DNA from: a virus
Direction: 5' to 3' (one strand)
DNA: 29,535 bases
Virus record (IMG/VR): IMGVR_UViG_3300020178_000512
Coordinates: 1-29,535 of that record
Made by a program: the position numbers and the translations under genes. Within the stretch, counting starts at the first letter, position 1. Each line of letters starts with the position of its first letter. Under the pieces are notes generated by a model. It made no database searches. It had not been told where the DNA came from and worked only from the letters and a program-made list of their open reading frames with translations. Shown one piece after another: positions 7,808 through 26,883 of this stretch.

Positions 7808-8239
7808 TTATCCACCAGCTGCAAAGAACAAACTAAGTAATCCACCAGCTAAAGTTCCCATCTTCCATAGGAAGGTATTTCTTTTCTGTCTTTTTAGTTC
7901 TTTTTCTAATTGTTTAGATTTTTCACTTTCTAAACCAAATTGTTCATCTTTCTTATCGATTATAGATTGTAAGTTAACAACTTTATCATTTAGATTAGTA
8001 ATGACACTATCCTTTAATACAACTTTATCGTTGGATAATCTTAACAATTCTTTGGTTTCTACTAATTCAAGTTTTACACCATCGAAAGTAACCAAATCTT
8101 TAATTACCAGTCTTACTATCGGAACTTGTAGTTTCACCACCGAATCCTTCCTCACCACCGAGTCGTTCGTTGTAACGGTCTGTGAAAAACTTGACAAGCT
8201 CATCGAAAGAAAGAACATCAACATTATTAATTTTTTCAT
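7808..8239 (-). CDS. Exported coiled-coil protein with C-terminal membrane segment
   Basis: A 143-residue protein from the ATG at 8239. A longer frame begins at 8296, but its extra 19 residues precede an obvious signal peptide and are probably not translated. Residues 1-19 (MKKLIMLMFFLSMSLSSFS) form a signal peptide with the SFS|Q cleavage style common in Flavobacteriia. Residues about 55-120 form a heptad-like coiled coil rich in Lys, Asp and Glu. Residues 123-141 (FLWKMGTLAGGLLSLFFAA) form a hydrophobic membrane segment. There is no lipobox cysteine, so it is not a classical Rz1 lipoprotein. Its first 140 nt overlap the preceding gene in another frame, like nested Rz/Rz1 genes. A host lysis role is suggested by architecture only. 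Confidence 0.7.
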   Translation of the reverse strand: MKKLIMLMFFLSMSLSSFSQTVTTNDSVVRKDSVVKLQVPIVRLVIKDLVTFDGVKLELVETKELLRLSNDKVVLKDSVITNLNDKVVNLQSIIDKKDEQFGLESEKSKQLEKELKRQKRNTFLWKMGTLAGGLLSLFFAAGG

Positions 8240-8507
8240 TCGTTTGATTTTTAATAGTTGAAATATTGTTTTGAACTCTATCGATATCACTATCAATCAG
8301 TTCAATTTCACTATGTAACGATTCTATTTTAGAGTCTAACTCTTCGTTAGCCAATGAGATTGAATCAATATCACTTTGGATTGCTTCAATCTTATCATCA
8401 AATGCAGCAACATCTGTTTGGATATCATGCATTACCATTAAATTGTAACCTACAAATCCTAAGATTACAATTAATATTAAATATATTTTTGTATTACTAT
8501 TATTCAT
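8100..8507 (-). CDS. Membrane-anchored coiled-coil protein (inner-spanin-like)
   Basis: A 135-residue protein with an N-terminal membrane helix (about 8-26, IYLILIVILGFVGYNLMVM) and an uninterrupted coiled coil rich in Ile, Asp, Ser and Glu (about 30-95). A conserved-looking segment LSFDELVKFFTDRYN (99-113) follows, then a flexible Gly/Ser tail. A short transmembrane helix followed by a periplasmic coiled coil is the architecture of inner-membrane spanins (Rz-like) that bridge to the outer membrane in Gram-negative lysis. The last 140 nt overlap the next gene, which has a signal peptide, in another frame. The start ATG is 1 nt after the upstream stop. Confidence in the gene is high; in the lysis role, moderate. 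Confidence 0.7.
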   Translation of the reverse strand: MNNSNTKIYLILIVILGFVGYNLMVMHDIQTDVAAFDDKIEAIQSDIDSISLANEELDSKIESLHSEIELIDSDIDRVQNNISTIKNQTNEKINNVDVLSFDELVKFFTDRYNERLGGEEGFGGETTSSDSKTGN

Positions 8508-9223: not shown

Positions 9224-12200
9224 CTATTCGTAAAATAAACCGAGAATCTGATTGAGTGGTGCGAATGTTCCCGTCAATTTGAAAGTTTTTCCACCATACA
9301 CAAATACGATTCCTTCATTTGGTACAATCTTATTCTTTCCACCGATTGCGTTTAATCTTTCCAACTCTAATTTAAGTTTAGAAACTTTCTTTGGGTCTCC
9401 ACCTTTCTGAACATCTTTGATGGTTTGGTCTAATCTCTTTTTCATATCTCTAACAGCAGAATTAGGATTTGCTGTCAGTGCTGAACTCATAAATGATAGA
9501 ACCTCTGCTCCAACACCTAAGAAGATATCTTCAAATGGTCTGATGTTATCCTTAGCCATCTTAGCATGGTCATTCTTATCAATCCCCTTAGCCCATTCTA
9601 AAGTTTTCTCATCAGTAATGTTCTTATTATCTAATCTGAATGATTTATCGTAGAATGCCCATCTCTTTACCAATCCCATTAGGGTTTTGTTATCTAACTT
9701 AGATGGTGATTTCTTATTCACAAAATCCATCCACCAAGCCTGATGATATTCTGCTACACCATCGGTATCTTTTAATTTAAACTTAGATTGTAGTTTTGAT
9801 ATTTGCCCATTATACTTTCCTTTAAGTGAAGAAAGGTTTTTGGATTTAGGTAATTGAACTACTGGTGGGCCTTGGATTGTGTAAGCTGATTGAACATCTG
9901 CATTGATTTGTTTAATCATACCAGCTAACATTCTAGCAGCGTCTTGGTTCTCACCAATTGCGATACCATCCTCATTATACTCCATCGTTCCGTGGAATAC
10001 TAAAAGTGCTTGTCCGTAAGGAATTACATTAACAGAAGTTGGATAGATTACTTCCAAATTCATAAAACATGCTCCACCTTTGAAAATTTTCTCTCTCTGC
10101 TTTTCGGATAACTTTGAAATGGCTTGGGTCAAATCTTTCATTGCGAAGTTATACGCTTTCTCCAATTCTCCTCTTCCTGCAAACTTCATAGCTACACCAT
10201 TGATATCCAATGCCCCAGCTCCTTTGTTTTTCAAATGTCCTTTGTTTCTCGCTGCAACCAATCTTCCATCTCTCCAACTAACTGCTAATGCTTGACCATC
10301 GGTCTTTTCTCTAGTGAGTTCCAAATTACCCTCTAAAGCTTTGTTTACAATATCTTTCAATTGTCCAAAAGTTAAATTGATTTCAGTATCAAATGGGTGA
10401 TTCATATGTCCATATGCTCCACCTTCGGTTAGTAAAACTTCATTTAACAATTTCTTTAATCGTATCATTTCTTCACTTTTATTAGTTGATTCAGTAATAC
10501 CACCACCCAATGCATATGGTTCATTATACTGAAGTTTTTCCTTATCAAATTTTTTTCTTAATCTCTTTAATTCTTCGCTATGGTCATCAATCCATTTTTG
10601 GTCAGGATAGCCATGTGGTGCCACTTCTTCAAGTTCATCACCCAACCCACTTTTATCTTTTGGATACATTTTGTGAGTACGATACATTACATACTCTTCA
10701 ATATCTTTAAGTTTAGTGTAATACTTTGGGTCCTCATACAAATGGTCTAATGCAATTCGTTCAGCCACACTCTTATCCGAAGTGTGTTCCATTTCTACTT
10801 TGATTCCCGCTTGTAATTCTTTATCTAAATCATCAATATCTACACCATGCATATTTGCAATATCGTAGATATCCATACCCTTTGCTAATTGTTCAAATTT
10901 ATATTCTGGGTCTGGAGTTTTAAAATCATCTTTTCTCATTATGGTTTTAGCGATTACTTTGTTCGCTTGTTTCATAAATGGAATGTTGATTTTACTTCTA
11001 TTATCTTTTGCTACGATTTGTCCATATAGGTTTAAGAAGTTTAGGAATTCCTTTTTCTTCTTTGCTAATCTTTTGAAAAATCCGATTAGTTCCGCAGGTG
11101 TAATTTCTTTTTTGTTTCTTGGGTCTGTCAACCTATCAAAGAAATGTTTATCGGTTAAAACTACATCTACTGGGTTTAGTTGTTTATCAGCGTATGTATC
11201 AATCTTAACCAAATCCGCCATTGGGATTTCATCTAATTGAACTTGTACACCTTCTTTTAAGATTCTAAAGTTTACAACTTTTCTACCATTGATGGTTGGC
11301 ATTCCATGTTCATCTTTACCAATAGTTTTAACAACTGTCTTTTTGTTTTTGAATCTACCCGTTAATATCGTATCACCAATTTTTACTGGGAGTTTAATAT
11401 CCTCTTTAAGAGTGTTACCCACTTCTTCTTTTTCATTTTCAATACCAACTAAAGATTCTTCTCTTTCATCTTCTAACTCAATAAAGTCAACTAATGAGTA
11501 TCCAACCAAACCAGCTACTCTAGTTACATGACTCCACCACTTATCGTAAGCTTCAGAACCATAAAAATCTTTTTGGTTTGTAGCAGTTGTTTTACCAGCT
11601 ACACCTGCTGGGAATGGGGTTACTGCCTTTACAGGACCTGTTGGATAAATTGGATGTGGGTCAATATCGGTAAGTTCATCACTCATTATTTGAGCTAATA
11701 CAGTATATCCAATTTTTTCTGCTCTTCTTTGAGAAATTCTATCGAATGTTGAATATGATGGAAATAAAAAGTTAGGGCCATCATCTACCTCGGTTTTACC
11801 AATAGTTTGAGATGCTTCTTTAATTAAATCAACATTATTAACTAACCACCTTTCTACCACTTCCTTTGGAATAGTAAATTCTTCGTTTAATGTATTGGTT
11901 ATAAAATTAAAAATCTTTTGATTGAATTTTGGATATGCTCTTTTTGAAAAAAACTTTTTCTTATCTTCTTCTGAACCTGTTGATAGTCCTCTACGAACTT
12001 CAGTTCCACTCACACCTCCTCCCCCTTCGGGAGCGATATACACATACCCCCTATCTTCATATCCTTCAAAATCAATTCCATCTTTGTAAGGAGTGAAGAA
12101 TTTACCACCTAATCTACTAGCATCTTTTTTACCAACAACGGTAATAAATGCGGTGGTATCTTTATTAAATTTTTTAAGTACCTCAGTTGGTACATATGGG

Positions 12201-12478
12201 TTCTTTACTTCAACGATTTGGTTTTTTGGAATACCAAACATCGTTGTCATAATCATCACCTTTTCTTTGAAGTTAAATGGTGATTTATCATTATCTGTTT
12301 TATTGGATGTACCAATATAAACATTGTTCTTACCAAACTTCTTTACTAAATGAGAATAAGTTGCGTAATGGCCCTTATGAAAAGGTTGAAAGCGGCCAGC
12401 GTAGACTACAACTTTGTTTTCTACACCGTCCGCTTCCCCTAATATACTCTCTACTAAAAATTGAGATAATTCGTTCAT
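9224..12478 (-). CDS. NMN-adenylyltransferase-like / RNA-ligase-like fusion protein
   Basis: A 1084-residue multidomain protein. Residues 20-200 form a nucleotidyltransferase (HIGH superfamily) domain resembling NadM/NadR NMN adenylyltransferases: GRFQPFHKGH (28-37) with the HxGH motif, and GVSGTEVRRG (155-164), the SxTxxR-type motif. Residues 222-335 hold an uncharacterised phage segment; 361-406 is a small beta-rich segment; 444-503 (KHFFDRLTDPRN and following) is of a type seen in other marine phages; 525-592 resembles DUF5661 (VEMEHTSDKSVAERIALDHL). Residues 686-1084 resemble covalent nucleotidyltransferases/RNA ligases: KTDG (725-728, candidate AMP-accepting lysine), NLEVIYP (807-813), NEGIVF (1054-1059) and KTFK (1064-1067). 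It may match the family called DUF6267, from memory only. Cleavage motifs LGE15|A, IKE221|A and LTE685|G precede domains. Substrates are unproven. Confidence 0.85.
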   Translation of the reverse strand: MNELSQFLVESILGEADGVENKVVVYAGRFQPFHKGHYATYSHLVKKFGKNNVYIGTSNKTDNDKSPFNFKEKVMIMTTMFGIPKNQIVEVKNPYVPTEVLKKFNKDTTAFITVVGKKDASRLGGKFFTPYKDGIDFEGYEDRGYVYIAPEGGGGVSGTEVRRGLSTGSEEDKKKFFSKRAYPKFNQKIFNFITNTLNEEFTIPKEVVERWLVNNVDLIKEASQTIGKTEVDDGPNFLFPSYSTFDRISQRRAEKIGYTVLAQIMSDELTDIDPHPIYPTGPVKAVTPFPAGVAGKTTATNQKDFYGSEAYDKWWSHVTRVAGLVGYSLVDFIELEDEREESLVGIENEKEEVGNTLKEDIKLPVKIGDTILTGRFKNKKTVVKTIGKDEHGMPTINGRKVVNFRILKEGVQVQLDEIPMADLVKIDTYADKQLNPVDVVLTDKHFFDRLTDPRNKKEITPAELIGFFKRLAKKKKEFLNFLNLYGQIVAKDNRSKINIPFMKQANKVIAKTIMRKDDFKTPDPEYKFEQLAKGMDIYDIANMHGVDIDDLDKELQAGIKVEMEHTSDKSVAERIALDHLYEDPKYYTKLKDIEEYVMYRTHKMYPKDKSGLGDELEEVAPHGYPDQKWIDDHSEELKRLRKKFDKEKLQYNEPYALGGGITESTNKSEEMIRLKKLLNEVLLTEGGAYGHMNHPFDTEINLTFGQLKDIVNKALEGNLELTREKTDGQALAVSWRDGRLVAARNKGHLKNKGAGALDINGVAMKFAGRGELEKAYNFAMKDLTQAISKLSEKQREKIFKGGACFMNLEVIYPTSVNVIPYGQALLVFHGTMEYNEDGIAIGENQDAARMLAGMIKQINADVQSAYTIQGPPVVQLPKSKNLSSLKGKYNGQISKLQSKFKLKDTDGVAEYHQAWWMDFVNKKSPSKLDNKTLMGLVKRWAFYDKSFRLDNKNITDEKTLEWAKGIDKNDHAKMAKDNIRPFEDIFLGVGAEVLSFMSSALTANPNSAVRDMKKRLDQTIKDVQKGGDPKKVSKLKLELERLNAIGGKNKIVPNEGIVFVYGGKTFKLTGTFAPLNQILGLFYE

Positions 12479-12534: not shown

Positions 12535-12951
12535 TTATACCTTAGAAAATGGTTCATTTACAACCTCACCACTATCGATTCCATTTGGATTAGCTCCAAA
12601 CTGACCTCCTTGTTGCTGTTGTTGTTGTTGTTCCATTTGCTCTTTTAAAGATTTATTGTAGGTAATTGTACCTTTTTCTAAATCTAACTGACCTCTAGGG
12701 TAATCTCTTTCCAATTTGTTTAATACTTTTCTCATTTCTGAGTTAGTATCTTTAAAACCTTCTTCCGCTTGAGTAAATGCATCCTCAATTCTTTGAAGTT
12801 CTTCGTGTAACTCATTTTTTCTAATATGAAGTTGTCCGAGTTGACCCATCAAATTATTAAGATTTGAATTGTACTCTTTGATTTCAGTAACTTTTTCTTC
12901 TGAAAGTTGTACTGTAACTAAATCAATTGATGTTGTTTGTTCTGTTGCCAT
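12535..12951 (-). CDS. Coiled-coil protein with polyglutamine tail (paralogue A)
   Basis: A 138-residue acidic coiled-coil protein of unknown function. Residues about 20-90 form a helical coiled coil containing LMGQLGQLHIRKNELHEELQ, followed by PRGQLDLEKGTITYNK. That pattern is shared with the protein encoded at 17497-17772 (LGQLAVQQRALNKRLKEVE and GQVDLDKGTITF), so the two are paralogues. The C-terminal tail has seven consecutive glutamines encoded by a CAA/CAG triplet run, then a Gly/Asn-rich end. The gene lies directly downstream of the glycosylation island and has its own candidate promoter 35 nt upstream. No enzymatic motif is visible. A structural or chaperone role is possible but unsupported. 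Confidence 0.8.
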   Translation of the reverse strand: MATEQTTSIDLVTVQLSEEKVTEIKEYNSNLNNLMGQLGQLHIRKNELHEELQRIEDAFTQAEEGFKDTNSEMRKVLNKLERDYPRGQLDLEKGTITYNKSLKEQMEQQQQQQQGGQFGANPNGIDSGEVVNEPFSKV

Positions 12952-13002: not shown

Positions 13003-13755
13003 TTATAAATTTTCGTAATCTATTGTTGTTACACCTCTTTTTTGTACTACTTGTGCTGAACAACGATTTCCGAATTGTATTGATTTTGGAATATCTTCGG
13101 AATCTAAGAACTCTTTCACAAATCCTGCTACAAAAGTATCTCCAGCTCCTGAGATATCCATAATCTCTACTCGTTCGGTTGGATACATTGTACCGTTGTA
13201 CATACATCCATCCTTATCTAATGTAATTATTAACTTTTCTAAAATCCAATCGTTCTGCTCTATAAATTCTTTGTTGTTTTCAAATTCTGAACGATTAAGT
13301 TTTATAAATCGTAAATCTCTACACCACTCACCCAATTTTTTCTTTGTATCACAAATTACATTTGGGTGTTTGAATCCGATATATGCTATATCTTCTTCGG
13401 TTAGGAATCCTTTGTTGTAATCAGAAACTACAACCATTTGATATTCCCAAAAATCCAACTTAGGTAATCTATCACCTATGTTATCAATATTTTTTTCCTC
13501 ATCAATTCTTAAAAGTAAAGTGTTTGATGGTTCGTGAATGTGTCTTGTCTTTGTAATTGGAAATTTTTGATGTTCAAAATCTACATCAATGTTTAGTGCA
13601 GATAAATTAGCCATTACATTCATTCCCATACCACCATTGTAAACTTCTCTTTTTGGAATGAATACAGGCGCAGGTCCTTCGGGTGAAAGACGAGGGGTAT
13701 CTCCATAAATGAAGATATCATCACATTGTTCTCCTATTACTAATACTTTACTCAT
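13003..13755 (-). CDS. hldE: PfkB-family sugar kinase, HldE kinase-domain-like
   Basis: A 250-residue kinase resembling the N-terminal domain of HldE (RfaE domain I), which phosphorylates D-glycero-D-manno-heptose 7-phosphate at C1. The N-terminus VLVIGEQCDDIFIYGDTPRL and SPEGPAPVF (about 4-33) match the RfaE pattern GDTxRxSPExPxPV. NGGMGMNVMANLSALN (40-55) corresponds to the sugar-binding GGAANVA segment. DISGAGDTF (200-208) is the PfkB signature with catalytic Asp206. It is shorter than a typical HldE kinase domain (about 315 residues), with apparent loss of central elements, so activity is not certain. Its start overlaps the stop of the nucleotidyltransferase gene by 8 nt (ATGAGTAA). Together the two form a split HldE. 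A different sugar substrate is possible. Confidence 0.85.
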   Translation of the reverse strand: MSKVLVIGEQCDDIFIYGDTPRLSPEGPAPVFIPKREVYNGGMGMNVMANLSALNIDVDFEHQKFPITKTRHIHEPSNTLLLRIDEEKNIDNIGDRLPKLDFWEYQMVVVSDYNKGFLTEEDIAYIGFKHPNVICDTKKKLGEWCRDLRFIKLNRSEFENNKEFIEQNDWILEKLIITLDKDGCMYNGTMYPTERVEIMDISGAGDTFVAGFVKEFLDSEDIPKSIQFGNRCSAQVVQKRGVTTIDYENL

Positions 13756-14131
13756 CCAATAAACCAGTTGTTGAGAATCCTTCTACTTTAGAGAAATATT
13801 CTATTTTCTTAGCATGCTTTCTACCAATGATTCCCTTATCTCTATATTCTTCACCAATTACAAAAATATCAGGTTGATACTTTTTAATTAAATTTGATAA
13901 TTCTTTATCTGAATCAAAAACTACAATATCAGTTACTCCATCAATTTGAAGTAAATTAAATATTCGTTGATTCTGATTATGGAAGGGTCTACTATCTCCC
14001 TTTGATTCTTTTACTCTTCTATCCGAATCGATTCCTATTTTTAATTCTCCACCAAAAGATTTTGCGTGTGCAATCAACTTAAAGTGTCCGTGATGGAGAA
14101 CATCAAAACATCCGTTAATCCAAACTTTCAT
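13748..14131 (-). CDS. hldE: Heptose-1-phosphate adenylyltransferase, HldE C-terminal-domain-like
   Basis: A 127-residue cytidylyltransferase-family enzyme resembling RfaE domain II, which makes ADP-heptose from heptose 1-phosphate and ATP. It has INGCFDVLHHGH (5-16) with the HxGH nucleotide-binding motif, then LKIGIDSDRRVKESKGDSRP, which matches the family's GVNSDxSVxxLKGxxRP pattern, and a C-terminal EGFSTTGLL that fits the STT(x)I-type motif. Length matches the stand-alone domain (about 130-160). Glycerol-3-phosphate cytidylyltransferase is the main alternative, but the adjacent RfaE-type kinase and heptosyltransferase favour ADP-heptose. It abuts the stop of the heptosyltransferase gene upstream and overlaps the kinase gene downstream, in a tight operon. 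Confidence 0.85.
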   Translation of the reverse strand: MKVWINGCFDVLHHGHFKLIAHAKSFGGELKIGIDSDRRVKESKGDSRPFHNQNQRIFNLLQIDGVTDIVVFDSDKELSNLIKKYQPDIFVIGEEYRDKGIIGRKHAKKIEYFSKVEGFSTTGLLDE

Positions 14132-15271
14132 TTACAAAAACTTTTCTAATTCTTTAATTACCATTTCCGATGTAATTGATGTGGTACATTCGAATTGCCT
14201 TTCAGTTCTTTTGTGGTCTGGACACCAATTCCAATCACCAGCATCCAACCTTAATCTATTAAAACAACCTTCACATTTTCCTTTAGGTGTACTGATTCTA
14301 ATACAATCTTGCATTTCAGCCCAATCGTATGAGAATCCACTAATCAATACAGTAGGAACATCCAATGACCAACTTAACCAACTCAATCCACTACCAATAC
14401 CAATAAATGCTTGAGATTTCTCCATTTCATCCATTACCAATTCTAAAGGTCCCCAAGGATGTTTTTCAATTCCTTTAGGTTCAAAGTTACCCATATAACC
14501 ACTTTGTTCTTTTGAAAGTAATCGTACTCTATAACCTCTACCTTTCAACCAATCAATAACTTCTTGCCAACCAGTTGGGTTATTCCAATATTTTGCTTGA
14601 GCGGTTCCGTGAATTGCAATAGTTACTAATTTTTCTTTTTTTAGATTTTTCTTATTTAATTTTGGTTTAATTTCTTTATACTCCAATCCCAATATATCAG
14701 AACCCATTTTTTGCATTGTTTGAGTTTTTGGGTCAGATGGGTTTTTGTATAAGTTTATATTCCCATCAGCAGTGTAAAATAATCCTAAAGAATACATAGC
14801 GTATAAGTTTTCAACAACATCACCAGGATTAACAAATTCAATATTTGGATATTGTTTTTGTAACATATCATTATGAAATGTAGATGTTACCATTTTACAA
14901 TTATGAACTTTTCCAAACTCTTCTACATAAGGAAACCAAGCCAAAGTATCACCCAATGCCTTTGAACTCAATGCAATGTAAACCCTTTTAGTGGATGCAT
15001 CAAAGTTTTCTTCATAAAATAATGTATCACCATCCCATACTTTAATGTTCCAATCTACAAAATATTCAATGTTGCACTTAGCCCAACAGTTATTTTTAAT
15101 TTCGGTTTCAAAATGAATTATATTTTTTCTCTTATCAAAAAATTGAACTCGATATGTAGCTGGAATATTTCCAGAAATATTTACTGTAGCCCCATTAACA
15201 TATGATATTGTAACAATATTTTTTACATTAACAATATTGTTTACATTTCGTTTTATATTATTGTAAATCAT
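14132..15271 (-). CDS. TibC-like protein O-heptosyltransferase (GT9 family)
   Basis: A 379-residue glycosyltransferase resembling the autotransporter O-heptosyltransferase (TibC/BAHT) family, which transfers heptose from ADP-heptose to serines. The ATG at 15271 overlaps the previous stop as ATGA, so I prefer it over the in-frame TTG at 15277. An N-terminal beta-rich domain (about 15-95) fits the family. The GT9 core contains VYIALSSKALGDTLAWFPY (97-115), IAIHGTAQAKYWNNP (218-232) and FIGIGSGLSWLSWSLDVPTV (289-308). Near the C-terminus four cysteines, C333-x2-C336-x13-C350-x11-C362, match the metal-finger layout reported for TibC. Genes for ADP-heptose synthesis follow immediately. The acceptor protein is not evident; no classical strand-loop-strand repeats are visible here. 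Confidence 0.88.
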   Translation of the reverse strand: MIYNNIKRNVNNIVNVKNIVTISYVNGATVNISGNIPATYRVQFFDKRKNIIHFETEIKNNCWAKCNIEYFVDWNIKVWDGDTLFYEENFDASTKRVYIALSSKALGDTLAWFPYVEEFGKVHNCKMVTSTFHNDMLQKQYPNIEFVNPGDVVENLYAMYSLGLFYTADGNINLYKNPSDPKTQTMQKMGSDILGLEYKEIKPKLNKKNLKKEKLVTIAIHGTAQAKYWNNPTGWQEVIDWLKGRGYRVRLLSKEQSGYMGNFEPKGIEKHPWGPLELVMDEMEKSQAFIGIGSGLSWLSWSLDVPTVLISGFSYDWAEMQDCIRISTPKGKCEGCFNRLRLDAGDWNWCPDHKRTERQFECTTSITSEMVIKELEKFL

Positions 15272-17439
15272 TTCCAACTTTTATTTAAATTATCAAGTAA
15301 AGAAAATCCTTCAGCTTGTTTTGAATGTCTGTAATTTGTTGTGTATCTATTTCGTTTGTGATTATAGAATACATGGTTATACCATAAATCCCCAACATCC
15401 CATTCACAATCGTTAATTCTATCCATCCACCAATCTTTATCTCTATTTGGTATTAGGTATGCATGAGCCCAATCTTGGTTGTAATCAGTTTTTCTAAAGT
15501 TATCATCTACACCCCAAGAGTTCCAAGATGGATTATCAGCCAATCCAATAAATGGAACATCATCTCTTTCCGAAATAAAACACGCTTTATAAACTATGTT
15601 TACAAAATCCTTTAGATTAGAATAAATAAATGCATCTGCTTCAAAAATAAGAGTGTAATCATAGTTTTCAGTATCAATTTCTTTTAATGCATTTATATGA
15701 GCTAAATAACATCCATAATGTCTACCAGTGATGTTTCCTATACCAAATTCTCCTTTGTATAATGGTTTATCAGATATATGTTCCGGTCTCCTACAAAATT
15801 CTTTAGGTGGTATATCATCATATACTTCATTTATGATTGGTTTATAATCAAATCCTAATCGTTGAAGTTGTCTAAGAGAGTTTGCACTAATTTGTTCCCT
15901 AACATCATCAGGTCGTGTCATCATATGAATAATTTGAACACGTGGTTTTTTTCTAAACCAACTATTTCCAATTTTTTCTATCTGTCCATAAAAATAATCA
16001 TTAACAGAATCAACAACACCACTAAACATTGGTATGTAATCATCACCAGCAATTATACCACCCGGCTTTACTTTATGAAACCAATTTTCAATATCAGTAC
16101 TGACTTCTTTATATGTATTACCCGCATCTATCATTACAAAATCCAATGAGTTGTTAATGAAAGAATCTTTAGCGTTTTTAGATAAGTCCTTAATTACATT
16201 TACATCATCCAATTTATCGAAATGAATCATATTACTTAAAAATTCTGAGTAAATATCATTATCATATAAACTCAATCGATGTTTTAAGTTTTCTTCAAAT
16301 GGAGAACCTTTAAATGTATCAATGGCTGTAAAGTTTATGTTTTTACCACTTTCTTTGATTTTATTAATCATAAAATTGGTAGATTTACCAAACCATGAAC
16401 CTACTTCAACTATGTTAGCATTATTAGGAAGTTTATCTACTACTTTAGTATATAATTCTTCATACGAAAACCAACCAGGAATTTCATTAAATTCAGGTTC
16501 TAACTTTTCCAATAATATGGTTTTGATATTATGAATATCGCCATCAATGTAAGTAACCAATTTGTTATCATCATATGTATCCAAATAAGTTTGTAATCGT
16601 CTGAATATGGATGGTAATCTATATGAAAGTGCTTCTTTGATTGAAAGTGGATTTAATTCTAACTTAGAACTAAAGTAAAATAAATCCGATGCTTTGTAGA
16701 ATTTATCAGTATCAGTTCTTTCACCCCATACAATACAATTATCGGGCTTATCTTCCATTAATGGTTTCCAATAAGATTCAAAGTTAACCGCTTGGTTTCC
16801 TACAAAATGAAATTTGATTTTATACTTTTCTAATAATCGTGCTACATCAAATATCTCACTTTGATTCTTTCCTTCTGAAAATAATCCTACCATTAGAACA
16901 TGCTTCCAATCTTTTTCAAATCCTAATTCGTCTTTTGCCGAATCTTTATCGTATTTGAAATTTTCAATTGGATACTCCCATACCTTAGTATCAACTCCTA
17001 AATGTTCAAATCTTCTTCTACTCCATTCAGATACCAAAATATATCTATCAGGTTGGTAACGAATTTCATTTGGATTTGTAAACGAACCATGTGTTGAACA
17101 AACGATATCAAACTTTCGAATGGTATTATCAAAAATTTTATCTAATGTGTTGTGGTCAATAAAGTGTTCTGGGATTTCGGTGAAGTGTATAATATCAGGA
17201 GATTCTTCAGATATAATTCTAAGAAGCTCTTCACCTTTATTTTCATAAAGAGTGTGAAGTTTTACTAAATCATTGATTTGATTTTTTTGAACTACAAATA
17301 CACCACCACTATGGTCGTTGTATTCAACCACTTGTATTTCAAACTCATCTTTGAAAGTTTGAATTTGTTTAAGAAGATATTGTGGCATTCCACCCGTAGA
17401 AAGATGCGATGCTACATAAAGTAGTTTTTTCTTTATCAT
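15268..17439 (-). CDS. Trifunctional GT4 / methyltransferase / GT25-like fusion
   Basis: A 723-residue protein with three apparent catalytic domains. Residues 1-315 are a GT-B, GT4-type glycosyltransferase: LLYVASHLSTGGMPQYLL at the start, VLMVGLFSEGKNQ (181-193), and an E-x7-E signature in ELNPLSIKEAL (261-271, E261 and E269). Residues 325-495 are a class I SAM-dependent methyltransferase of the Methyltransf_24 type: VEVGSWFGKST (344-354, SAM-binding glycine motif) and MIDAGNTYKEVSTDIENWF (436-454), then PGGIIAGDDY. Residues 498-723 resemble GT25 glycosyltransferases: YGCYLAHINALKEI (575-588) and YTLIFEADAF (595-604), where EADA stands for the acidic metal-binding motif. It leads the glycosylation operon and overlaps the heptosyltransferase gene by 4 nt. 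Sugars and acceptors are unknown. Confidence 0.85.
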   Translation of the reverse strand: MIKKKLLYVASHLSTGGMPQYLLKQIQTFKDEFEIQVVEYNDHSGGVFVVQKNQINDLVKLHTLYENKGEELLRIISEESPDIIHFTEIPEHFIDHNTLDKIFDNTIRKFDIVCSTHGSFTNPNEIRYQPDRYILVSEWSRRRFEHLGVDTKVWEYPIENFKYDKDSAKDELGFEKDWKHVLMVGLFSEGKNQSEIFDVARLLEKYKIKFHFVGNQAVNFESYWKPLMEDKPDNCIVWGERTDTDKFYKASDLFYFSSKLELNPLSIKEALSYRLPSIFRRLQTYLDTYDDNKLVTYIDGDIHNIKTILLEKLEPEFNEIPGWFSYEELYTKVVDKLPNNANIVEVGSWFGKSTNFMINKIKESGKNINFTAIDTFKGSPFEENLKHRLSLYDNDIYSEFLSNMIHFDKLDDVNVIKDLSKNAKDSFINNSLDFVMIDAGNTYKEVSTDIENWFHKVKPGGIIAGDDYIPMFSGVVDSVNDYFYGQIEKIGNSWFRKKPRVQIIHMMTRPDDVREQISANSLRQLQRLGFDYKPIINEVYDDIPPKEFCRRPEHISDKPLYKGEFGIGNITGRHYGCYLAHINALKEIDTENYDYTLIFEADAFIYSNLKDFVNIVYKACFISERDDVPFIGLADNPSWNSWGVDDNFRKTDYNQDWAHAYLIPNRDKDWWMDRINDCEWDVGDLWYNHVFYNHKRNRYTTNYRHSKQAEGFSLLDNLNKSWK

Positions 17440-17496: not shown

Positions 17497-17772
17497 TTAT
17501 TCTTCAAAAGTAATTGTACCCTTATCTAAATCAACTTGGCCGTTTTTATATTTCTTATCAAGTTCACCAAGTTTTTCTTCTAATTCAAAGATATACTTAT
17601 CGTTCATTGCTCCGTACTTTTCTTGATTATCTTCTACTTCTTTTAATCTTTTATTTAAAGCTCTTTGTTGAACGGCAAGTTGTCCTAAGAAGATTACAAT
17701 CTTATCAGTTTCATCTCGTAGAAATCTTAATCTTTCTACAGTCTCTTTATCTAAATTTTCTGTCTTTGCCAT
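17497..17772 (-). CDS. Coiled-coil protein (paralogue B)
   Basis: A 91-residue charged coiled-coil protein. It shares with the protein at 12535-12951 a GQL-containing helix (FLGQLAVQQRALNKRLKEVE, about 28-47) and the C-terminal block NGQVDLDKGTITFEE, where the paralogue has RGQLDLEKGTITYNK. It lacks the paralogue's polyglutamine tail. It lies 57 nt upstream of the glycosylation operon, so the two paralogues bracket that operon. A candidate promoter (C variant) is 15 nt upstream of the ATG, which also has AAAGG at a reasonable distance. Function is unknown. Confidence 0.8.
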   Translation of the reverse strand: MAKTENLDKETVERLRFLRDETDKIVIFLGQLAVQQRALNKRLKEVEDNQEKYGAMNDKYIFELEEKLGELDKKYKNGQVDLDKGTITFEE

Positions 17773-18453: not shown

Positions 18454-21400
18454 TTATCCAATTATTATAAAATTTAATCGTGCAATGTTTGTATAATCAT
18501 CTTCACTTGATGTTGCCGATGGGTCTTGTGCCCACACTTGAATAGTTGCAGTAGAATTAGCTACATTACTTTGTACAGTACCCGTACCCAATCCTAATTG
18601 TTGGTCATCACCACCACCACCTGTTATTAATCGTACACCACTACCTACCATACCAAACCACTTAGCATCTGCATTTGCTCCGGTGGATAAAACAGTATCA
18701 ATGGTAACATTCCATCTACCATAATTCGTAGATGAAATTGAATCAAAATTACCAAAACTCATAGCAATAGTTTCGGTTGGGTTTGATGTAGTGATTGCTG
18801 CAAAGGATATGTTAATTAATCCACCACCCTTTATAGCGTATGGGTGTCCTGCTAGGTTATATGCACCACCAATACCAGGTGCAGCTGTAAATCCACCTGC
18901 ACCATACAATTTATCCACAGCAAGTCCACCCTGTATATCACTAATGTAACCAATATCAGAGCCAAATGCTTTGGTTGTATCCGATGCAACTCTGAAGTAA
19001 TTGGTTGCATCTTTAATTACAGCAAATCCACCACCATTCACATATGTACCTGTATTCTGAGCTTCAAGAGTTACATAGTGAGTTGTTCCAGATGGTGCAT
19101 AACTAAATTGTGCAGAATATTGGGTATTTGCAGCTGAAACAGTTAAAGACGTATCTATCACATAATGAACATAATAGGTTCCTGCTGCTAAACTTTCAAT
19201 AGTTTTTGTCAGATTTGTTGATGGGAATGTATTAATCCCACCACTTACAGGAATAGTTGTTACGAAGTTGTGAGAAACAATATTGTTAGAGATATAGTTG
19301 TTTAATTTAGGTATTTCCATAGAATATACCTTAATCGTTTTAGCAATCAACTCTACCGAATCTACTATTCGTTTTACAAAAGAATCTCCCTCTTTCACAT
19401 AAACCTCATCTTCACCAGCTCTTAAATCAGTTACTATGATTTTCCAACCAGGAGCGTAGAAGAATCCGTGAGTATCGGATACTTCAACAACATTATCACC
19501 AACCTTTACTCGATAAACTTTATCTACAACCCTACTTTTTAAATGTTTTATTTTAGCAGATTCGTATTGATTTGTTTCCACATTCCAAGCTAAAATTGTA
19601 TCTTTAACTCTTAAATCTTCTACATTTTTAGTTTCACCATTTGATAAAGTAATTTGAGTTCCCTCAATTACAGATTCATATCCAATACCACCCTCATCAT
19701 ATCCAATAGATTGTTGAGTAATTGTTTGACTGGTTGCGTATAAAGTTCCACCACCACCTGTCGATGAATCTCTCAATTCTGCTCGAAGGGCGATAGTAGC
19801 ATATGAACCAGCACCAACACCATCCACATAAGTGTTACTATTTTGAACATGCTGTGCTTTCATTTTATACTTACCAGCATCAGAAACAGTCAATGCACTA
19901 CTAACTCTATAATTCGTAACTTCCGAAGTACCCGTAGAGGTATTACCAACGCCAAGTTGTTCAGTAATAGCAGTAGTCGATACTCCGGCAGTTGCCGAAC
20001 CACCACCACTTAAATCAGGTAATGAGGTGCCTGTGTTTGCATTAAATCTAGGATTACCATCAGTATCACCAACCGAAAAATCAGAATCTACTGAGTTTAG
20101 GGTAATATTTCCCGATGAATCTTGAATACCAGCTGAGTTGATAGTCCATCCACCAAGAACACCATTATTTGCTGTTATAGTACCTGAGAATGTGTTATTA
20201 TCACCTAATGCAGTTACTTCACCTTGTTCATTAACCCTAAAATTAAATTCTCCTGAGTTTGTATCAAATCCAACCAATAAACTACCACCTCTAAGAGTTG
20301 AACCTGTAACGAATCCACTATATACAAGAGTAGTACCATCAAAATCAACAAAACCAGATTCAGGGTCTGTTATATCAGCATACATTGAAAATTTAGGGTC
20401 TCCTGTTACACCAACAGTTCCACCATCGAATCCTAAGAAAATACCATCCTGTCCATAACCTTGAGTTCCACCCTGTCCTATTGAGATGTAAGGGTTAGCG
20501 TTTGTACCAGCAGCATCAGCGTTTAATGCAATTACAGCCGAACCATTTTTAGCACCAACATTTATTGTTCTATCAGCATAAACATCTTGTGCAAAAAGAA
20601 TATCAGTTGCAACTGAAGTAAATTCTGCTCCAAATGCATCCCAACCAGCTCCCCAAGAACCAGGTGCGATTGAAGAACCGATTGAATCCCAATCAGCAGT
20701 GGCTATATTAGGTTCCTGGTCACCTGGTGCGGTTGCATTAACACATATATAATATGTACCAGAATAAAGGACAACATCATCTGCAACATATCCAACAGAA
20801 CCACCACTCCAAGTACCAGTATATCTATGAGTTGTAGCACATACCCAATAGTTAGAAGCACCCGATGTGTATTTTACAACATATTTTAAATCATCCTCAC
20901 CTAAATAAACAACTTTATCGGTTGTATCGGGTGTAGAACCATCGGGTAATGTTAATGTCCATTCTCCAGCATATACGATACCAGCAGCCTGTCCATTTGC
21001 ACCATTTGCACCAGAAGTACCCGAAGTACCTGATTCACCTGCTTTGGATTTAGTTAAGGTTTGTGTGGTGGATATTGTAAAATCAGTTCCATCTAATCGT
21101 TTCCCACTAAATTCATAAGTAATAACAACCGTATCCGCCGTCATATTGGAATGTTGAGTAATATTGAAATCATCGTTACTATCAATATTATCAGTTCCTA
21201 AACTTAAATTATTAGGAGTTACTGTAAATGTTGGAATATCATAAGTACCTGGACTCGTACCACTTTCATCATAAGTTAATTTAGTTGCTCCCTCATAAAT
21301 AATAATAGTAGTACCACTACCAGCATAAGATGAAACCGTACCATCGGATGCAGCGGGGAGTGTATGTGCTTGGTTAGTATTTACAACAGTAATACCATCA

Positions 21401-24400
21401 GAACCTTCTTCAACTCTAACAATTGTAATCTCATCACTTACCCCATCAGCCGTTGCAGTAACAGTAACTGCACCATTTGTGCCGAAATCGGTATTTGATA
21501 AAGTTCTCGTATCACCCGTTCCACTTAATGTTACGCTTGGGGATGATGTAAATCCAGAGGTTGAAGCTATGTTTTGTCTATTGGTAGTAAATGTAATTGA
21601 TGCTGGGGTTAATGTAGCACTATCTTTTGGTTTTACGAATGTTTGTGAACTTGCAGATAATCTAATCGTTTTTGCAGTAGCACCCCCACTACCAGCAGTA
21701 CCTGCCGTTCCCGATGTACCAGCAGCTGCTGCTAATGACCAAGATTCAGCATTATCCACACCAACACCAGGTTCATAACTATCCACCGATGCAGTGTGAG
21801 CTAATCCAATCATAGTCCAACTCTGACCAGAATTACTTACAATATCATTTGGATAATAAATTGAACCAGCTGTCCAAGTACCCCTTAATGAACCTTCAAT
21901 TATACCAGCAGCTGTTTGTCTGATTGCTCCCCTAATAGTAAGTGTATTACCATCCCACTCCATTGAGTTGTAGGTTTGATTTGGAGGACTACCAATTGGT
22001 GATGATTTTAATGATAAAATGCCCGTTGTTCCAGCAGTTCCAGAAGAACCGAAATCATTAGTCATACCAATGAATACACCTGGCTGTCTAAAACCTTGAG
22101 TACCAGTCTGTCCAACTGAAATGTATGGTTCATCCGTTCCACCAACAATAGCGATGTTAGCGTTTTGATTTCCAGCAGGTGGAATACCAACATTAATTGT
22201 ATTCTTAACAAACGATTCTTCGAAGATTGCTAACTTAGCTGCTACAAAGAAATCTTGTTGACCTAAATACTGCCAAGTAGTAGCATAATCAATATCACCT
22301 TCTTGAGTTGCGGGTGGTCCAGCATCGTATTGTGGTTGAAGTGTATAAACACCATCACCATCTACATATTCCGAAGCGGTTGGGGTTAATTCAGTAGTTG
22401 CCCAATAGTGAACATCGCCACTAATTTCTCTAAATACTGCATCTCTTCTCTTTTGATTTAAATCAAATACATAAGGAATGGTTTCATCCCACTCACCCCT
22501 TACAACTAAACCAGGACCAGTTGCTCCTTCAAAAACAGTTGAGAATGATTGTTGTACAAATTGAGTTCCTCTACCATTTTCAAAATCAATTTTATAAATG
22601 ATATATCCTTGAGTATTATCTTGAGGTAAATTCCAATTAGTAACTGCGGATGCACTAGCATATAATTCATCTTCGGTTGGTGAAATTGATTTGGAAACAA
22701 TACTTTTTCCATCCCTCAAAGTACCAGCTGTTAAAAATGATGATATTTCATGTATAGATGCTGAGAATTGTCCGAATGTACCAATTGGTAAGAACGTAAT
22801 CGGGTCAAACGCATTTTCGTTATATTCCTCAACATATTGTAATTCAGTTCCACCTTTATATGCCCTAATTAAAGTACCACCATTATCAAAATAAGTTGTA
22901 CCATCAACTTCAACAGTTACAGAAGATGCTGGGTTTGATAATTGTGCTGAATATGCCTGTGTACCTTCTTTAACACCAGAAATAGTTACACTATCAATAT
23001 CAGCAATTGGAGAAGATGCACCACCATCTCTAAGGTTTACTGTGAATAAACTTGATGAACCAAAATTAGGTAAGTAGTTATCAATATTAACAGTATTGGA
23101 TGTAGATGAACCCCCACCAATAGTACCACCATCAGCATCTAAAAATTCAAAATAAGCAGAACCAGTTGTGTTAAATGCAGTTGCGGTAAGGCTAACCGAA
23201 CCAACAGGTGCAACTTTAGTACCATCGCCATCATAAATAACAGTATCACTATTTGATACTAATGATACCTTTCTAGCTTTACTACCATCATTTACTTTTG
23301 AGAAGGTTTGAGTTTTGGATACAATAGTAGGTACACCAGCAACCCCACCTTTAAGTGCATATGGATAAACTCTAAAGTTATATGTTATACTAGCAGAAGG
23401 TTGATTTCGTTCAATACCACCAAATCCCTTAAAGTGTAAGATTTCATCTCCACTTAAAGAGCTATCTCTTTGAGAAGATGATACCTCAGAAAATGTAATA
23501 CCAGAAGCAGAAATGGATGCCGTTAAGAATGTACCGGGTGTTCCCGCATTAGTTTCATCATAAATTAAAAACTCATCGTTTTGTTTGATAAATACTTCAG
23601 TTGTACCAGCAGTATAATTTGAAATAAATCCACTCTCATCTGCATTAAATGAAACAGCAATAGGGTCTAAGTTTACTTCAATAGCACCAGCTCCTTCTAC
23701 AACCTTTGTGAACTTCTGAGTTCTACTTGCGGTAACTAAAGATGCTGTAAAATATGGGTATATATCAAAATCATATTTAATACTAGCACTTAAAGCTGTC
23801 ATATTAGAAAATCCAGCCAAACTCATAGTTGTGGTTGAATCACCATCCAATGTTCCAAATGAAATATTAATTGGTGTTACCGATGTTGTGGTAAATGTAC
23901 CAGGGTCACCTGATGCGGTATTTATTAAAAATAAATCACCTTGTGTAACTTGAATATCAGTATTCGCTAGTGAGTAATTATATACCTCACCTTTTGGATT
24001 AGACCCTAACGAAACTGGTTGCGGGTCTATATCAATAATAATAGCATTTTGACCTGGTAAACCATCAGGTGTAATAAAGAATGATTTATTAGCGGTTACC
24101 GATGCTGATGTAATTGGTTCGGTATAGGTAAATTCAAAATTTAATTGTTTTGTATCATCCGCTTGAAAGAATGTTATGGGATTCCCACTTGTTTCATCTA
24201 ATGTTTGACCAGGTACACCATTATTAATAACATTACCTTGAAAATCCGTTACAGAAACAGTAATACTTTCATCAAATGCTCCAGTTTCATAGAACATATA
24301 GTAATGAGGTAATTCCGTTTTTGTTTCAATCGATGCCGATGGAATTACCTTTAAACTAGCAGATAAAGGATTTAAAGTTGTACCTCTTCGTTGGAAAGAT

Positions 24401-26883
24401 GCTGTTACTATTGATTGTAATGGGTCAAACTGAGAAACTTCTCTTGGTTTATATTTGATGTTAAATTGTTCGGTTGTGGATGTTACTAAACCTGGATTTA
24501 AACCATCTTTTAAATCGGTTAGTATAAGTGAGGTTAAAATAGATTCCGAAGTAGGTCCATCCATAAGGTAAACCGTCAATTCATTATCAATAGAATCTCT
24601 CGTAAAGATTGCGTTGTAATCAATCTCACCACTACCAGTTGTACCAGCAGTTACACCTTCTATAAAATTAGGGTCAGTAATTGCTTGAGAAAGAGATACA
24701 TAGGTAAGTACAGTATCTACCCCATCGATTGATGATGATAATAAGTGTAGCTTTGCATCAGAAAATCCCCTATCCAACCCATCTCTAAGTTGAATTCTAT
24801 TAATACCATCAACCCTAATAGCTTGAATTTCTAATGTTTTAGATTCTTTGTTTTTAATTTGAGTTCCCCTAAAAGGTACAATTTCAAAACTAACACCACC
24901 TTTACCATCTTCAACTCTTGTAATTACAAATGTATCCGATACTCCCTCAACTTCACCAGTATATCGAATAAATTGAACAACAATATCTTCCCTAGAACCC
25001 GTAAAGTCTTGAACTCTTAAAAATGGCTGCCTACCTAAATCAACATTCCAATCAGTTAAGTAACCAGGATAACCACCCACAGAATAAGATGCTTCTGGAA
25101 TAAGATTCCCGAAGAAATCATATGCACCAGAGGTATAAGTAATTGAACCTGTAACTAATGTGGTTTCCACATCAAAGTTAATTACAGTAGGTGGAATTGG
25201 ATTTGCTGGGTTGGATGCCGAATCAAAAGAAAAATATAAATTATCAGGAGTAATTTCAATACTTTTTTCAAATAAATTAGTATTACCACCAACAAATGTT
25301 TTTGTTGTTTCAACTCTAATAGGAATAAAGTTGTTGTTTATATCATAAAATTCGAAACGATAATCGAATGTTTCTGTTACTAATGTTTTTGGTACTTGTT
25401 GAATGAATGTAATTTCATCAGGTGAAAACGATGTTTCTTGAGATGCTTTTAAACTTACATTGTTAATGTACCAATCACTACCACTTACCTCAAAATATAA
25501 ACTAGCCGTTTGAATATTATCGGCTATAATATTTTCATTAAAATTTGTTTTTTGTAATAGGGTATTTGATGAATCTATTGTAGTGATTGTTTGAGAAACA
25601 GAACTACCATTTATAGAACCACTTAAAAATACCTTTAAATAATCACCAGAAGTATTAGCATCCTTTCTTACATTTAAATCCAAAGTGTATTCTACTCCAC
25701 TTTGTATTGAGAAGCTTTGTGAGGTATAAAAATAATTACCAGGTGAAGAATCCAACTTAGCTGAGTTGTATAACACATCTTGATTAAATGTTACATCAAA
25801 ATCATTAGATGATGTTACCCAATATGAATCTAAAACACCTTGAGTAAAAATACCATAGTTTTCATCTTTTTTATCAAAGGTAGTGATATCTCTTAAAAGT
25901 TCATTTGATTCTAATTGTATTTCTTGTACAAACTCAAAATCAGTTAGGTTTGATTGAGACCTTCTAAATACTTTTACCCTTGCCGCATCACCAACAAATG
26001 TTTTCATATCGGTGATGTTAATCTTAGCAAAGGAACCAGTCAATGCTGTTGCTAAATCACCAACACCCTCTATATATGGAAATGTTAATGAATAATCTTC
26101 ATTTATAAATGGTTGTACTGAATCATTTACTGAATATGGGGGAGAAACAACTATTTCGGTTTCGTTTACAACTTCATTAATTGTGGGTGAATATGTAATG
26201 TTATCAAACGAAATAGTTTGCCCTTCAATTGAACCAGTCCATTTATTACCACTATTAACTTTTAATCGATACGAAGTTGGTAATGTAAAATTTGATAAAT
26301 TTGTATTTTGAGTTGGTACTAAAGGAATACCATCAACCGAACCAATTTGGGTTACTGATGGGGGATTGCCACTAAAGATTGGCTTCACCACCTCATCAAT
26401 AGTTACTTTAGGTCTACGATAAAATCTTACCTTATCTTCGTTTGCAAGATTTTTATTAACTTGGAAAGTTCTTTGCCATTTAACATTATACGCACCTTGC
26501 CATTCGGTTGGAATGGGTCTCTTTACCCCATTTTCATCATACTCTTTAAGTTCTCCTAAAATGGTAATTTTACCTAAACCAATTGGGGTATCATTATATA
26601 CATAAACAGCTACTAGTTTAGATATACCTTCATAATATTCAGGAATACCATTTCCTGGTTCATAATAAATGGGCTCCCCATTAACATCTAAAAGTTCAAT
26701 TTTAATCTCAGTTGATTCTTTTAGATATTCCGAACCTTCAATTAAAAATCCATTCTTACCACCAGTAAATGTATCCTTAAATTCAGTAATACGAAAGTAG
26801 TCCGAATTTGGATTTTCATCTACCAAAAATGTTTGAAATGATGATAAGTTTTGTTTAGGTGCAAACTTTTTAATTCTAGCCAT
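18454..26883 (-). CDS. Giant tail fibre/adhesin-like protein with inserted Hint domain
   Basis: A 2809-residue Ser/Thr/Gly-rich beta-structured protein, probably the host-recognition fibre. The N-terminus (KKFAPKQNLSSFQTFLVDEN) resembles fibre-type structural proteins of marine T4-like phages. From about 520 to 1960 there are at least nine tandem beta-sandwich-like modules, most ending in a K-x-x-(D/E)-G turn (for example KFTKVVEGAG, TFSKVNDGSK). Collagen-like triplets occur near 1609 (GSSGTAGTTG), 1720 (GTSGTAGTAGSGG) and 1950 (GESGTSGTSGANGANG). Two segments resemble CBM5/12 carbohydrate-binding modules: about 1665-1718 (RGTWTAGSIYYPNDIVSNSG) and 2018-2070 (TGTWSGGSVGYVADDVVLYS). Residues 2404-2539 are a Hint domain. 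The last 270 residues are a Gly-rich beta tip. No signal peptide or membrane helix is present. It is followed by an assembly-chaperone-like gene. Confidence 0.85.
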   Translation of the reverse strand: MARIKKFAPKQNLSSFQTFLVDENPNSDYFRITEFKDTFTGGKNGFLIEGSEYLKESTEIKIELLDVNGEPIYYEPGNGIPEYYEGISKLVAVYVYNDTPIGLGKITILGELKEYDENGVKRPIPTEWQGAYNVKWQRTFQVNKNLANEDKVRFYRRPKVTIDEVVKPIFSGNPPSVTQIGSVDGIPLVPTQNTNLSNFTLPTSYRLKVNSGNKWTGSIEGQTISFDNITYSPTINEVVNETEIVVSPPYSVNDSVQPFINEDYSLTFPYIEGVGDLATALTGSFAKINITDMKTFVGDAARVKVFRRSQSNLTDFEFVQEIQLESNELLRDITTFDKKDENYGIFTQGVLDSYWVTSSNDFDVTFNQDVLYNSAKLDSSPGNYFYTSQSFSIQSGVEYTLDLNVRKDANTSGDYLKVFLSGSINGSSVSQTITTIDSSNTLLQKTNFNENIIADNIQTASLYFEVSGSDWYINNVSLKASQETSFSPDEITFIQQVPKTLVTETFDYRFEFYDINNNFIPIRVETTKTFVGGNTNLFEKSIEITPDNLYFSFDSASNPANPIPPTVINFDVETTLVTGSITYTSGAYDFFGNLIPEASYSVGGYPGYLTDWNVDLGRQPFLRVQDFTGSREDIVVQFIRYTGEVEGVSDTFVITRVEDGKGGVSFEIVPFRGTQIKNKESKTLEIQAIRVDGINRIQLRDGLDRGFSDAKLHLLSSSIDGVDTVLTYVSLSQAITDPNFIEGVTAGTTGSGEIDYNAIFTRDSIDNELTVYLMDGPTSESILTSLILTDLKDGLNPGLVTSTTEQFNIKYKPREVSQFDPLQSIVTASFQRRGTTLNPLSASLKVIPSASIETKTELPHYYMFYETGAFDESITVSVTDFQGNVINNGVPGQTLDETSGNPITFFQADDTKQLNFEFTYTEPITSASVTANKSFFITPDGLPGQNAIIIDIDPQPVSLGSNPKGEVYNYSLANTDIQVTQGDLFLINTASGDPGTFTTTSVTPINISFGTLDGDSTTTMSLAGFSNMTALSASIKYDFDIYPYFTASLVTASRTQKFTKVVEGAGAIEVNLDPIAVSFNADESGFISNYTAGTTEVFIKQNDEFLIYDETNAGTPGTFLTASISASGITFSEVSSSQRDSSLSGDEILHFKGFGGIERNQPSASITYNFRVYPYALKGGVAGVPTIVSKTQTFSKVNDGSKARKVSLVSNSDTVIYDGDGTKVAPVGSVSLTATAFNTTGSAYFEFLDADGGTIGGGSSTSNTVNIDNYLPNFGSSSLFTVNLRDGGASSPIADIDSVTISGVKEGTQAYSAQLSNPASSVTVEVDGTTYFDNGGTLIRAYKGGTELQYVEEYNENAFDPITFLPIGTFGQFSASIHEISSFLTAGTLRDGKSIVSKSISPTEDELYASASAVTNWNLPQDNTQGYIIYKIDFENGRGTQFVQQSFSTVFEGATGPGLVVRGEWDETIPYVFDLNQKRRDAVFREISGDVHYWATTELTPTASEYVDGDGVYTLQPQYDAGPPATQEGDIDYATTWQYLGQQDFFVAAKLAIFEESFVKNTINVGIPPAGNQNANIAIVGGTDEPYISVGQTGTQGFRQPGVFIGMTNDFGSSGTAGTTGILSLKSSPIGSPPNQTYNSMEWDGNTLTIRGAIRQTAAGIIEGSLRGTWTAGSIYYPNDIVSNSGQSWTMIGLAHTASVDSYEPGVGVDNAESWSLAAAAGTSGTAGTAGSGGATAKTIRLSASSQTFVKPKDSATLTPASITFTTNRQNIASTSGFTSSPSVTLSGTGDTRTLSNTDFGTNGAVTVTATADGVSDEITIVRVEEGSDGITVVNTNQAHTLPAASDGTVSSYAGSGTTIIIYEGATKLTYDESGTSPGTYDIPTFTVTPNNLSLGTDNIDSNDDFNITQHSNMTADTVVITYEFSGKRLDGTDFTISTTQTLTKSKAGESGTSGTSGANGANGQAAGIVYAGEWTLTLPDGSTPDTTDKVVYLGEDDLKYVVKYTSGASNYWVCATTHRYTGTWSGGSVGYVADDVVLYSGTYYICVNATAPGDQEPNIATADWDSIGSSIAPGSWGAGWDAFGAEFTSVATDILFAQDVYADRTINVGAKNGSAVIALNADAAGTNANPYISIGQGGTQGYGQDGIFLGFDGGTVGVTGDPKFSMYADITDPESGFVDFDGTTLVYSGFVTGSTLRGGSLLVGFDTNSGEFNFRVNEQGEVTALGDNNTFSGTITANNGVLGGWTINSAGIQDSSGNITLNSVDSDFSVGDTDGNPRFNANTGTSLPDLSGGGSATAGVSTTAITEQLGVGNTSTGTSEVTNYRVSSALTVSDAGKYKMKAQHVQNSNTYVDGVGAGSYATIALRAELRDSSTGGGGTLYATSQTITQQSIGYDEGGIGYESVIEGTQITLSNGETKNVEDLRVKDTILAWNVETNQYESAKIKHLKSRVVDKVYRVKVGDNVVEVSDTHGFFYAPGWKIIVTDLRAGEDEVYVKEGDSFVKRIVDSVELIAKTIKVYSMEIPKLNNYISNNIVSHNFVTTIPVSGGINTFPSTNLTKTIESLAAGTYYVHYVIDTSLTVSAANTQYSAQFSYAPSGTTHYVTLEAQNTGTYVNGGGFAVIKDATNYFRVASDTTKAFGSDIGYISDIQGGLAVDKLYGAGGFTAAPGIGGAYNLAGHPYAIKGGGLINISFAAITTSNPTETIAMSFGNFDSISSTNYGRWNVTIDTVLSTGANADAKWFGMVGSGVRLITGGGGDDQQLGLGTGTVQSNVANSTATIQVWAQDPSATSSEDDYTNIARLNFIIIG
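19267..19674 (-). other. Hint (intein-like) domain within the giant fibre
   Basis: This segment encodes residues 2404-2539. It begins SVIEGTQITLSNG, which fits the block A pattern C-x-x-x-G-T-x-I with Ser for Cys at position 1. It has VEVSDTHGFF (His2472), fitting block B (T/S-x-x-H), then IKVYSMEIPKLNNYI (block F) and NNIVSHN (block G, ending in Asn2539). At 136 residues there is no room for a homing endonuclease. The residue after the final Asn is Phe, not Cys, Ser or Thr, so canonical splicing is unlikely. This resembles bacterial intein-like (BIL) domains that mainly cleave. It interrupts what looks like one beta-domain. Confidence 0.8.

Follow-up and report, generated by a model that had tools for sequence, protein, structure and literature searches.

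A putative glycosylation cassette in a phage structural module

The viral record IMGVR_UViG_3300020178_000512, from a large aquatic phage (hereafter the window, which is the whole IMG/VR record of 29,535 bases and probably a fragment, of 29.5 kb) carries three adjacent minus-strand open-reading frames, which together resemble a protein glycosylation cassette. They encode a short HldA/HldE-like PfkB kinase (13003..13755, 250 amino acids, with the catalytic Asp206 of its GAGD motif kept), a nucleotidyltransferase resembling HldE domain II (13748..14131, 127 amino acids, with HxGH and GFSTT motifs) and a predicted protein O-glycosyltransferase of the TibC family (14132..15271 from an ATG start, an upstream TTG would give 15277). 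The nucleotidyltransferase and kinase genes overlap by 8 nt and the transferase and nucleotidyltransferase genes abut (0 nt), in line with the three overlapping or abutting genes of a first-pass annotation of this DNA, whilst a fourth minus-strand gene (15268..17439), encoding a 723-amino-acid protein with GT4, methyltransferase-24 and GT25-like domains (Pfam), overlaps the transferase gene by 4 nt. We take the cassette open-reading frames to be coding because their order is kept in dozens of viral contigs, with relatives at roughly 50–100% identity.

The surroundings are those of a T4-like structural module, with portal, large terminase subunit (TerL) and prohead protease genes nearby, so the phage structural region proposed in the first-pass annotation stands. 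The window TerL is nearest to those of Microcystis phage Mel-JY01 (57%) and Flavobacterium phage immuto (56%), and a SFSQ-type signal peptide is encoded at window 7808–8296; these two features suggest a host in the Bacteroidota. Beyond the GT4/methyltransferase gene lies a minus-strand gene (18454..26883) for a 2809-amino-acid probable fibre or adhesin, a weak candidate acceptor with short collagen-like triplet runs at residues 1612–1623 (GSSGTAGTTGIL), 1722–1730 (GTSGTAGTA) and 1949–1966 (GESGTSGTSGANGANGQA). A homologous large protein lies upstream in most relatives with a contig long enough to show it; we rejected the reading that triplet arrays in it characterize the family as a whole, as most copies are without them.

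The transferase is a relative of TibC

Against NCBIfam TIGR04414 (BAHT) the transferase scored 277.7 bits, above the curated cut-off of 200 and far under the 663 bits of an autotransporter-type homologue (L187). It matched the solved TibC structures 4rap (E = 4e-54) and 4rb4 (E = 2e-54), and its AlphaFold model (pLDDT 89.8) has the TibC fold with the N-terminal beta-barrel, superposing on TibC 4RAP with a TM-score of 0.87 (2.5 Å over 372 columns). Ordinary lipopolysaccharide (LPS) heptosyltransferases (WaaC/WaaF, GT9), named in the first-pass annotation as the placement that would speak against its TibC assignment, fell far behind: TIGR02193 (LPS heptosyltransferase I) gave 24.8 bits and the model a TM-score of 0.43–0.47 to WaaC. 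We rejected that identity; the enzyme is a relative of TibC.

Residue numbering and roles were taken from the TibC structure paper (PMC4358343) and compared across aligned rows. The catalytic Asp-110, the phosphate-binding Thr-226 and Lys-230, Trp-305 and the four iron-finger cysteines (339/342/358/370) are kept in 23/23 window-family rows. Residue 300 is Gly, replacing Pro/Ser, throughout the window family and in a related type found in Methylococcales (see below), and Arg-286, retained in 28/28 autotransporter-clade rows, is lost in both. The window has no autotransporter with strand-loop-strand repeats next to the transferase; relatives of the same type adjoin collagen-like proteins instead. 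With Arg-286 also missing, we class the enzyme as a BAHT relative and not as an autotransporter heptosyltransferase. Like TibC and AAH (PMC4358343), the transferase type shares a fold, active-site residues and iron finger, and adjoins a gene for a repetitive candidate acceptor. It differs in that its repetitive neighbours are collagen-like Gly-Thr-Ser (GTS) proteins, not strand-loop-strand adhesins, and in that the window enzyme is phage-borne, lies outside the autotransporter clade, and is accompanied by a GT4/methyltransferase protein and, in some loci, by genes for donor synthesis.

This fold bears on whether the cassette might change the LPS or surface of the host against superinfection, as suggested for other phage glycosyltransferases. 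The same kinase and nucleotidyltransferase do occur in cyanophage sugar-gene clusters, and pelagiphage rfaE with glycosyltransferases has been read in this way (PMC7029224), but here the transferase has the fold of the protein-glycosylating TibC, iron finger included, and not of an LPS heptosyltransferase, and is located in a late structural region, which makes a role at the host surface quite improbable.

The GT4/methyltransferase protein adjoins the transferase in all close relatives wherever the contig reaches (synteny), and GT4–TibC domain fusions occur in distant phages (Mel-JY01, a 735 kb phage and L064), suggesting possible extension or methylation of the glycan. TibC domains of the distant phages L067, L068, L064, L084 and L126 are part of long multi-domain proteins, in which they follow, or are fused to, domains of the GT4, GT9 or methyltransferase kind.

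Collagen-like repeat proteins accompany the transferase in bacteria and phages

Genomes were scanned for relatives of the transferase and the neighbouring genes were then read; many relatives adjoin proteins with GTS repeats. Among 251 genomes from the order that includes Methylobacter, presumed to be Methylococcales, nine carry phage-type homologues (468–532 bits), and 8/9 of these genes directly adjoin a gene for a signal-peptide protein with GTS/GTT/GTA/GTN repeats, in several relative orientations (Pfam Collagen in 4/4 neighbours tested). A strict four-triplet DNA pattern was present in 8/9 phage-type genomes vs. 26/242 others (p = 4e-7), within 1.7 kb of the transferase gene in 6/9; in two genomes (G032 and G180) the strict matches listed are elsewhere in the genome and the repeats beside the transferase are looser. 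Five Methylococcales genomes with autotransporter-type genes had no strict-pattern match, and the autotransporter-type L187 gene adjoins an AIDA-repeat adhesin (Pfam). A Polaromonas relative (L082) likewise lies beside a collagen-like repeat protein, and in a gammaproteobacterial metagenome-assembled genome of 3.8 Mb (L089) all 29 pattern matches flank the transferase gene, about 2 kb to either side.

The same division is apparent in a transferase tree of 73 rows, in which neighbour groups were labelled from simple sequence patterns. The autotransporter clade (28 rows, SH-aLRT 100) has 13 members beside strand-loop-strand-like proteins, the one tested being Pfam AIDA, and 0/28 beside GTS arrays, whereas all 16 GTS-linked rows, and the window transferase, fall outside that clade (16 of 45 rows, p = 2e-4). 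As some of the deeper branches are long and their placement uncertain, a single clade of GTS-linked rows is not established.

In phages, large contigs of the window family encode tail fibres with hundreds of Gly-Ser/Thr triplets (GTS/GSS), in which the third position is mostly Ser and Pro is absent; the longest triplet stretch reaches 1,221 residues in one 3,994-amino-acid protein, whose 3,929-amino-acid companion ends in Peptidase_S74, a tail-fibre chaperone. Counting each lineage once (our own lineage count, on incomplete contigs), the triplet pattern occurred in 8/10 transferase-positive phage lineages vs. 0/19 T4-like records lacking the enzyme (p = 1e-5), where the absence of the gene from eight named phages rests on a search of the phage collection. 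The reverse test agreed: a TibC-like gene was present in 15/22 viral contigs (62–299 kb) picked only for GTS arrays, whilst of 12 contigs picked by TerL, 11 had neither gene nor array and one had both, 310 bp apart. The genome of the isolated phage Mel-JY01 also has both.

Kinase, nucleotidyltransferase and the supply of donor

The HldE-like identities proposed in the first-pass annotation agree with the profile and fold searches. The best family of the kinase is TIGR02198 (107.5 bits, E = 7e-31), it matches phage family phrog_8133 over its whole length (250 bits), its AlphaFold model (pLDDT 87) has Burkholderia cenocepacia HldA as all seven top PDB fold matches, and GAGDTF is invariant over 16 aligned phage kinase rows. 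The nucleotidyltransferase is best matched by TIGR02199 (95.5 bits, E = 2.5e-27) vs. 50.0 bits for glycerol-3-phosphate cytidylyltransferase. The kinase is thus closest to HldA and the nucleotidyltransferase to HldE domain II, both being short but conserved phage families. Their chemistry would follow the same order as in HldE or HldA plus HldC, with shared fold and catalytic motifs, but they are two separate open-reading frames and not a fused bifunctional HldE, and the kinase is about 65 residues shorter, so the split enzyme and short kinase half had been rightly described. Split heptose enzymes (HldA/HldC) are known. We rejected the nucleoside triphosphate-promiscuous STTR5 type of nucleotidyltransferase, as the motif here is GFSTT and not the GRSTT that marks it in a commentary (PMC11573728).

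The pair lies directly downstream of the transferase in 28/62 scorable close relatives, window included, and in all members of the window's own subclade. It is not an inseparable part of the cassette, an option we rejected: the remaining 34/62 lack it, with at least five changes on the transferase tree as drawn, and two large contigs without the pair showed no HldE-like genes elsewhere on them.

The earlier description of a self-contained part of the pathway did not hold up, as a GmhB-type phosphatase is needed between the kinase and nucleotidyltransferase and was not found, and about half of the relatives have neither gene. The genes gmhA (TIGR00441) and gmhB (TIGR00213) were sought in 30 related viral records and found in none; the window being a mere fragment, their absence from it says little. 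A homologue of the cyanophage HAD phosphatase described below occurs in the relative G017; the search of 27 further records, the window among them, gave none. We invoke the host or unlinked phage genes for the isomerase and phosphatase steps. Isomerase matches of at least 100 bits are patchy in candidate hosts, being found in under half of 60 Flavobacteriales genomes, the host itself being a prediction.

Cyanophages such as P-SSM2, S-SM2, S-CAM1 and P-TIM68 carry the same short kinase (34–46% identity) and nucleotidyltransferase in their sugar-gene clusters. They differ in that the four records of the phage collection that have a TibC-like gene do not include them, and in having other sugar genes and their own HAD phosphatase misnamed phosphoheptose isomerase. 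We rejected this last gene as a GmhA: it encodes an EcbF-BcbF-like HAD phosphatase (about 110 amino acids; L069 6722–7066, L070, L071, L072, L073 and L075), which stands beside or near the same kinase and nucleotidyltransferase genes and could supply the phosphatase that viruses are said to lack.

The first-pass annotation had also passed over functional virus-encoded enzymes of ADP-heptose synthesis, reported by Tang et al. in 2024. In commentaries on that work (PMC11573728, PMC11461863) the purpose of such enzymes for the virus is left open, whereas at the present locus a transferase and a specific candidate acceptor, likewise missing from that annotation, are attached. The novelty here would be the acceptor class and the phage setting, heptose enzymes alone being already known from phages.

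A proposed role in the glycosylation of collagen-like tail fibres

The comparisons above show the gene identities, the fold, the retained catalytic residues and the genomic association of this TibC type with collagen-like repeat proteins. Beyond these we infer, with reasonable though by no means full confidence, that the cassette is a phage protein O-glycosylation unit in which the TibC-type enzyme heptosylates Ser/Thr of collagen-like tail-fibre triplets. The enzyme would transfer heptose from a nucleotide-activated heptose, likely ADP-heptose, onto Gly-Thr/Ser-Ser triplets in the phage's own long fibres, most likely on Ser, which TibC modifies (PMC4358343), and perhaps on Thr. The short kinase and nucleotidyltransferase might boost or replace the donor supply of the host, and the benefit could be stiffer, protease-resistant or shielded fibres. 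The broader proposition, that phages and bacteria share a TibC-family branch acting on such triplets rather than on beta-helical adhesins, and that certain phages carry ADP-heptose genes of their own to supply it with donor, we hold only slightly more probable than its contrary.

Several observations pull the other way. On the side of the acceptor, the 2809-amino-acid protein of the window holds only its three short, Ser/Thr-rich runs, most close relatives are without triplet arrays within the available flank, and no array was seen in W03 or G022 or beside L181; arrays can lie far off, as in the close relative G004 (TerL 90% identical), whose long array is about 45 kb from the transferase, and close relatives are non-independent samples. 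On the side of the donor, Arg-286, which contacts adenine in TibC and whose Ala mutant is inactive or nearly so (PMC4358343), is replaced by Val (22) or Leu (1) in the 23 window-family rows and by Val, Ile or Met in the eight Methylococcales-type rows tested, the kinase and nucleotidyltransferase score under the NCBI equivalog cut-offs (345 for TIGR02198 and 181.5 for TIGR02199) though these are by far their best families, about half of the close relatives lack the pair, and gmhA and gmhB are missing as described above.

The first set bears on whether the transferase and collagen-like fibres share a tail-fibre module for modular reasons only, the true acceptor lying in a different virion protein or in other stretches of the 2809-amino-acid protein. 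The conserved position of the transferase near that protein, and the fact that triplet runs are short or missing around many of the phage copies, are what such co-location would give, but the pairing recurs in several orientations on bacterial chromosomes, where housekeeping genes surround it and no phage module is present, and we consider this explanation unlikely. The second set bears on the sugar: the loss of Arg-286 in the window family and the Methylococcales type means that the donor may differ, and the enzyme type and acceptor could be as proposed with another nucleotide or sugar made by the HldE-like pair. The change to Gly at residue 300 fits that option as well. Yet heptose enzymes are the best profile and fold matches of both proteins by a clear margin, the phosphate-binding and sugar-contacting residues of the transferase are retained, and the viral enzymes covered in the commentaries cited above are reported to make ADP-heptose; a different donor is accordingly a minority option, a shade less unlikely than simple co-location. 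The ADP-heptose of the first-pass annotation thus stays the likely donor, with the substitution at Arg-286 as the reservation.

If heptosylation of collagen-like fibres is correct, it would give viral heptose synthesis a purpose, predict heavily heptosylated collagen-like fibres, and explain the long proline-free Gly-Thr-Ser arrays in the tail fibres of aquatic phages, which, being without hydroxyproline, may need such decoration for stability. The NCBI name 'autotransporter strand-loop-strand O-heptosyltransferase' would then span a second group with another substrate, and a route of collagen glycosylation would be added outside animals and Bacillus. BclA of Bacillus is a glycosylated collagen-like protein and mycobacteriophage virions are glycosylated, both likenesses to the proposed fibres; to our knowledge their transferases and sugars are unrelated to the system described here. 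In the literature searched, the single paper that contains both 'heptosyltransferase' and 'collagen-like' deals, going by its title and abstract, with a different matter.

Other features of the window

In nearly all relatives the glycosylation cassette is flanked on both sides by small proteins, similar to one another and coiled-coil-like on visual inspection; those of the window lie at 12535–12951 and 17497–17772 (minus strand). Within the 2809-amino-acid protein a Hint/intein-like domain (19267–19665, minus strand; Pfam Intein_splicing 25.4 bits, below cut-off) by eye has no first Cys and has Phe after HN, and is probably not a splicing intein. The minus strand also encodes a 1084-amino-acid protein (9224–12478), whose N-terminal domain is nucleotidyltransferase-like and which also contains DUF5661 and, in its C-terminal region, a KxDG-like motif (EKTDGQAL), and a UDP-glucose dehydrogenase of 272 amino acids (27528–28346) that comprises the first two domains only, without the C-terminal domain.
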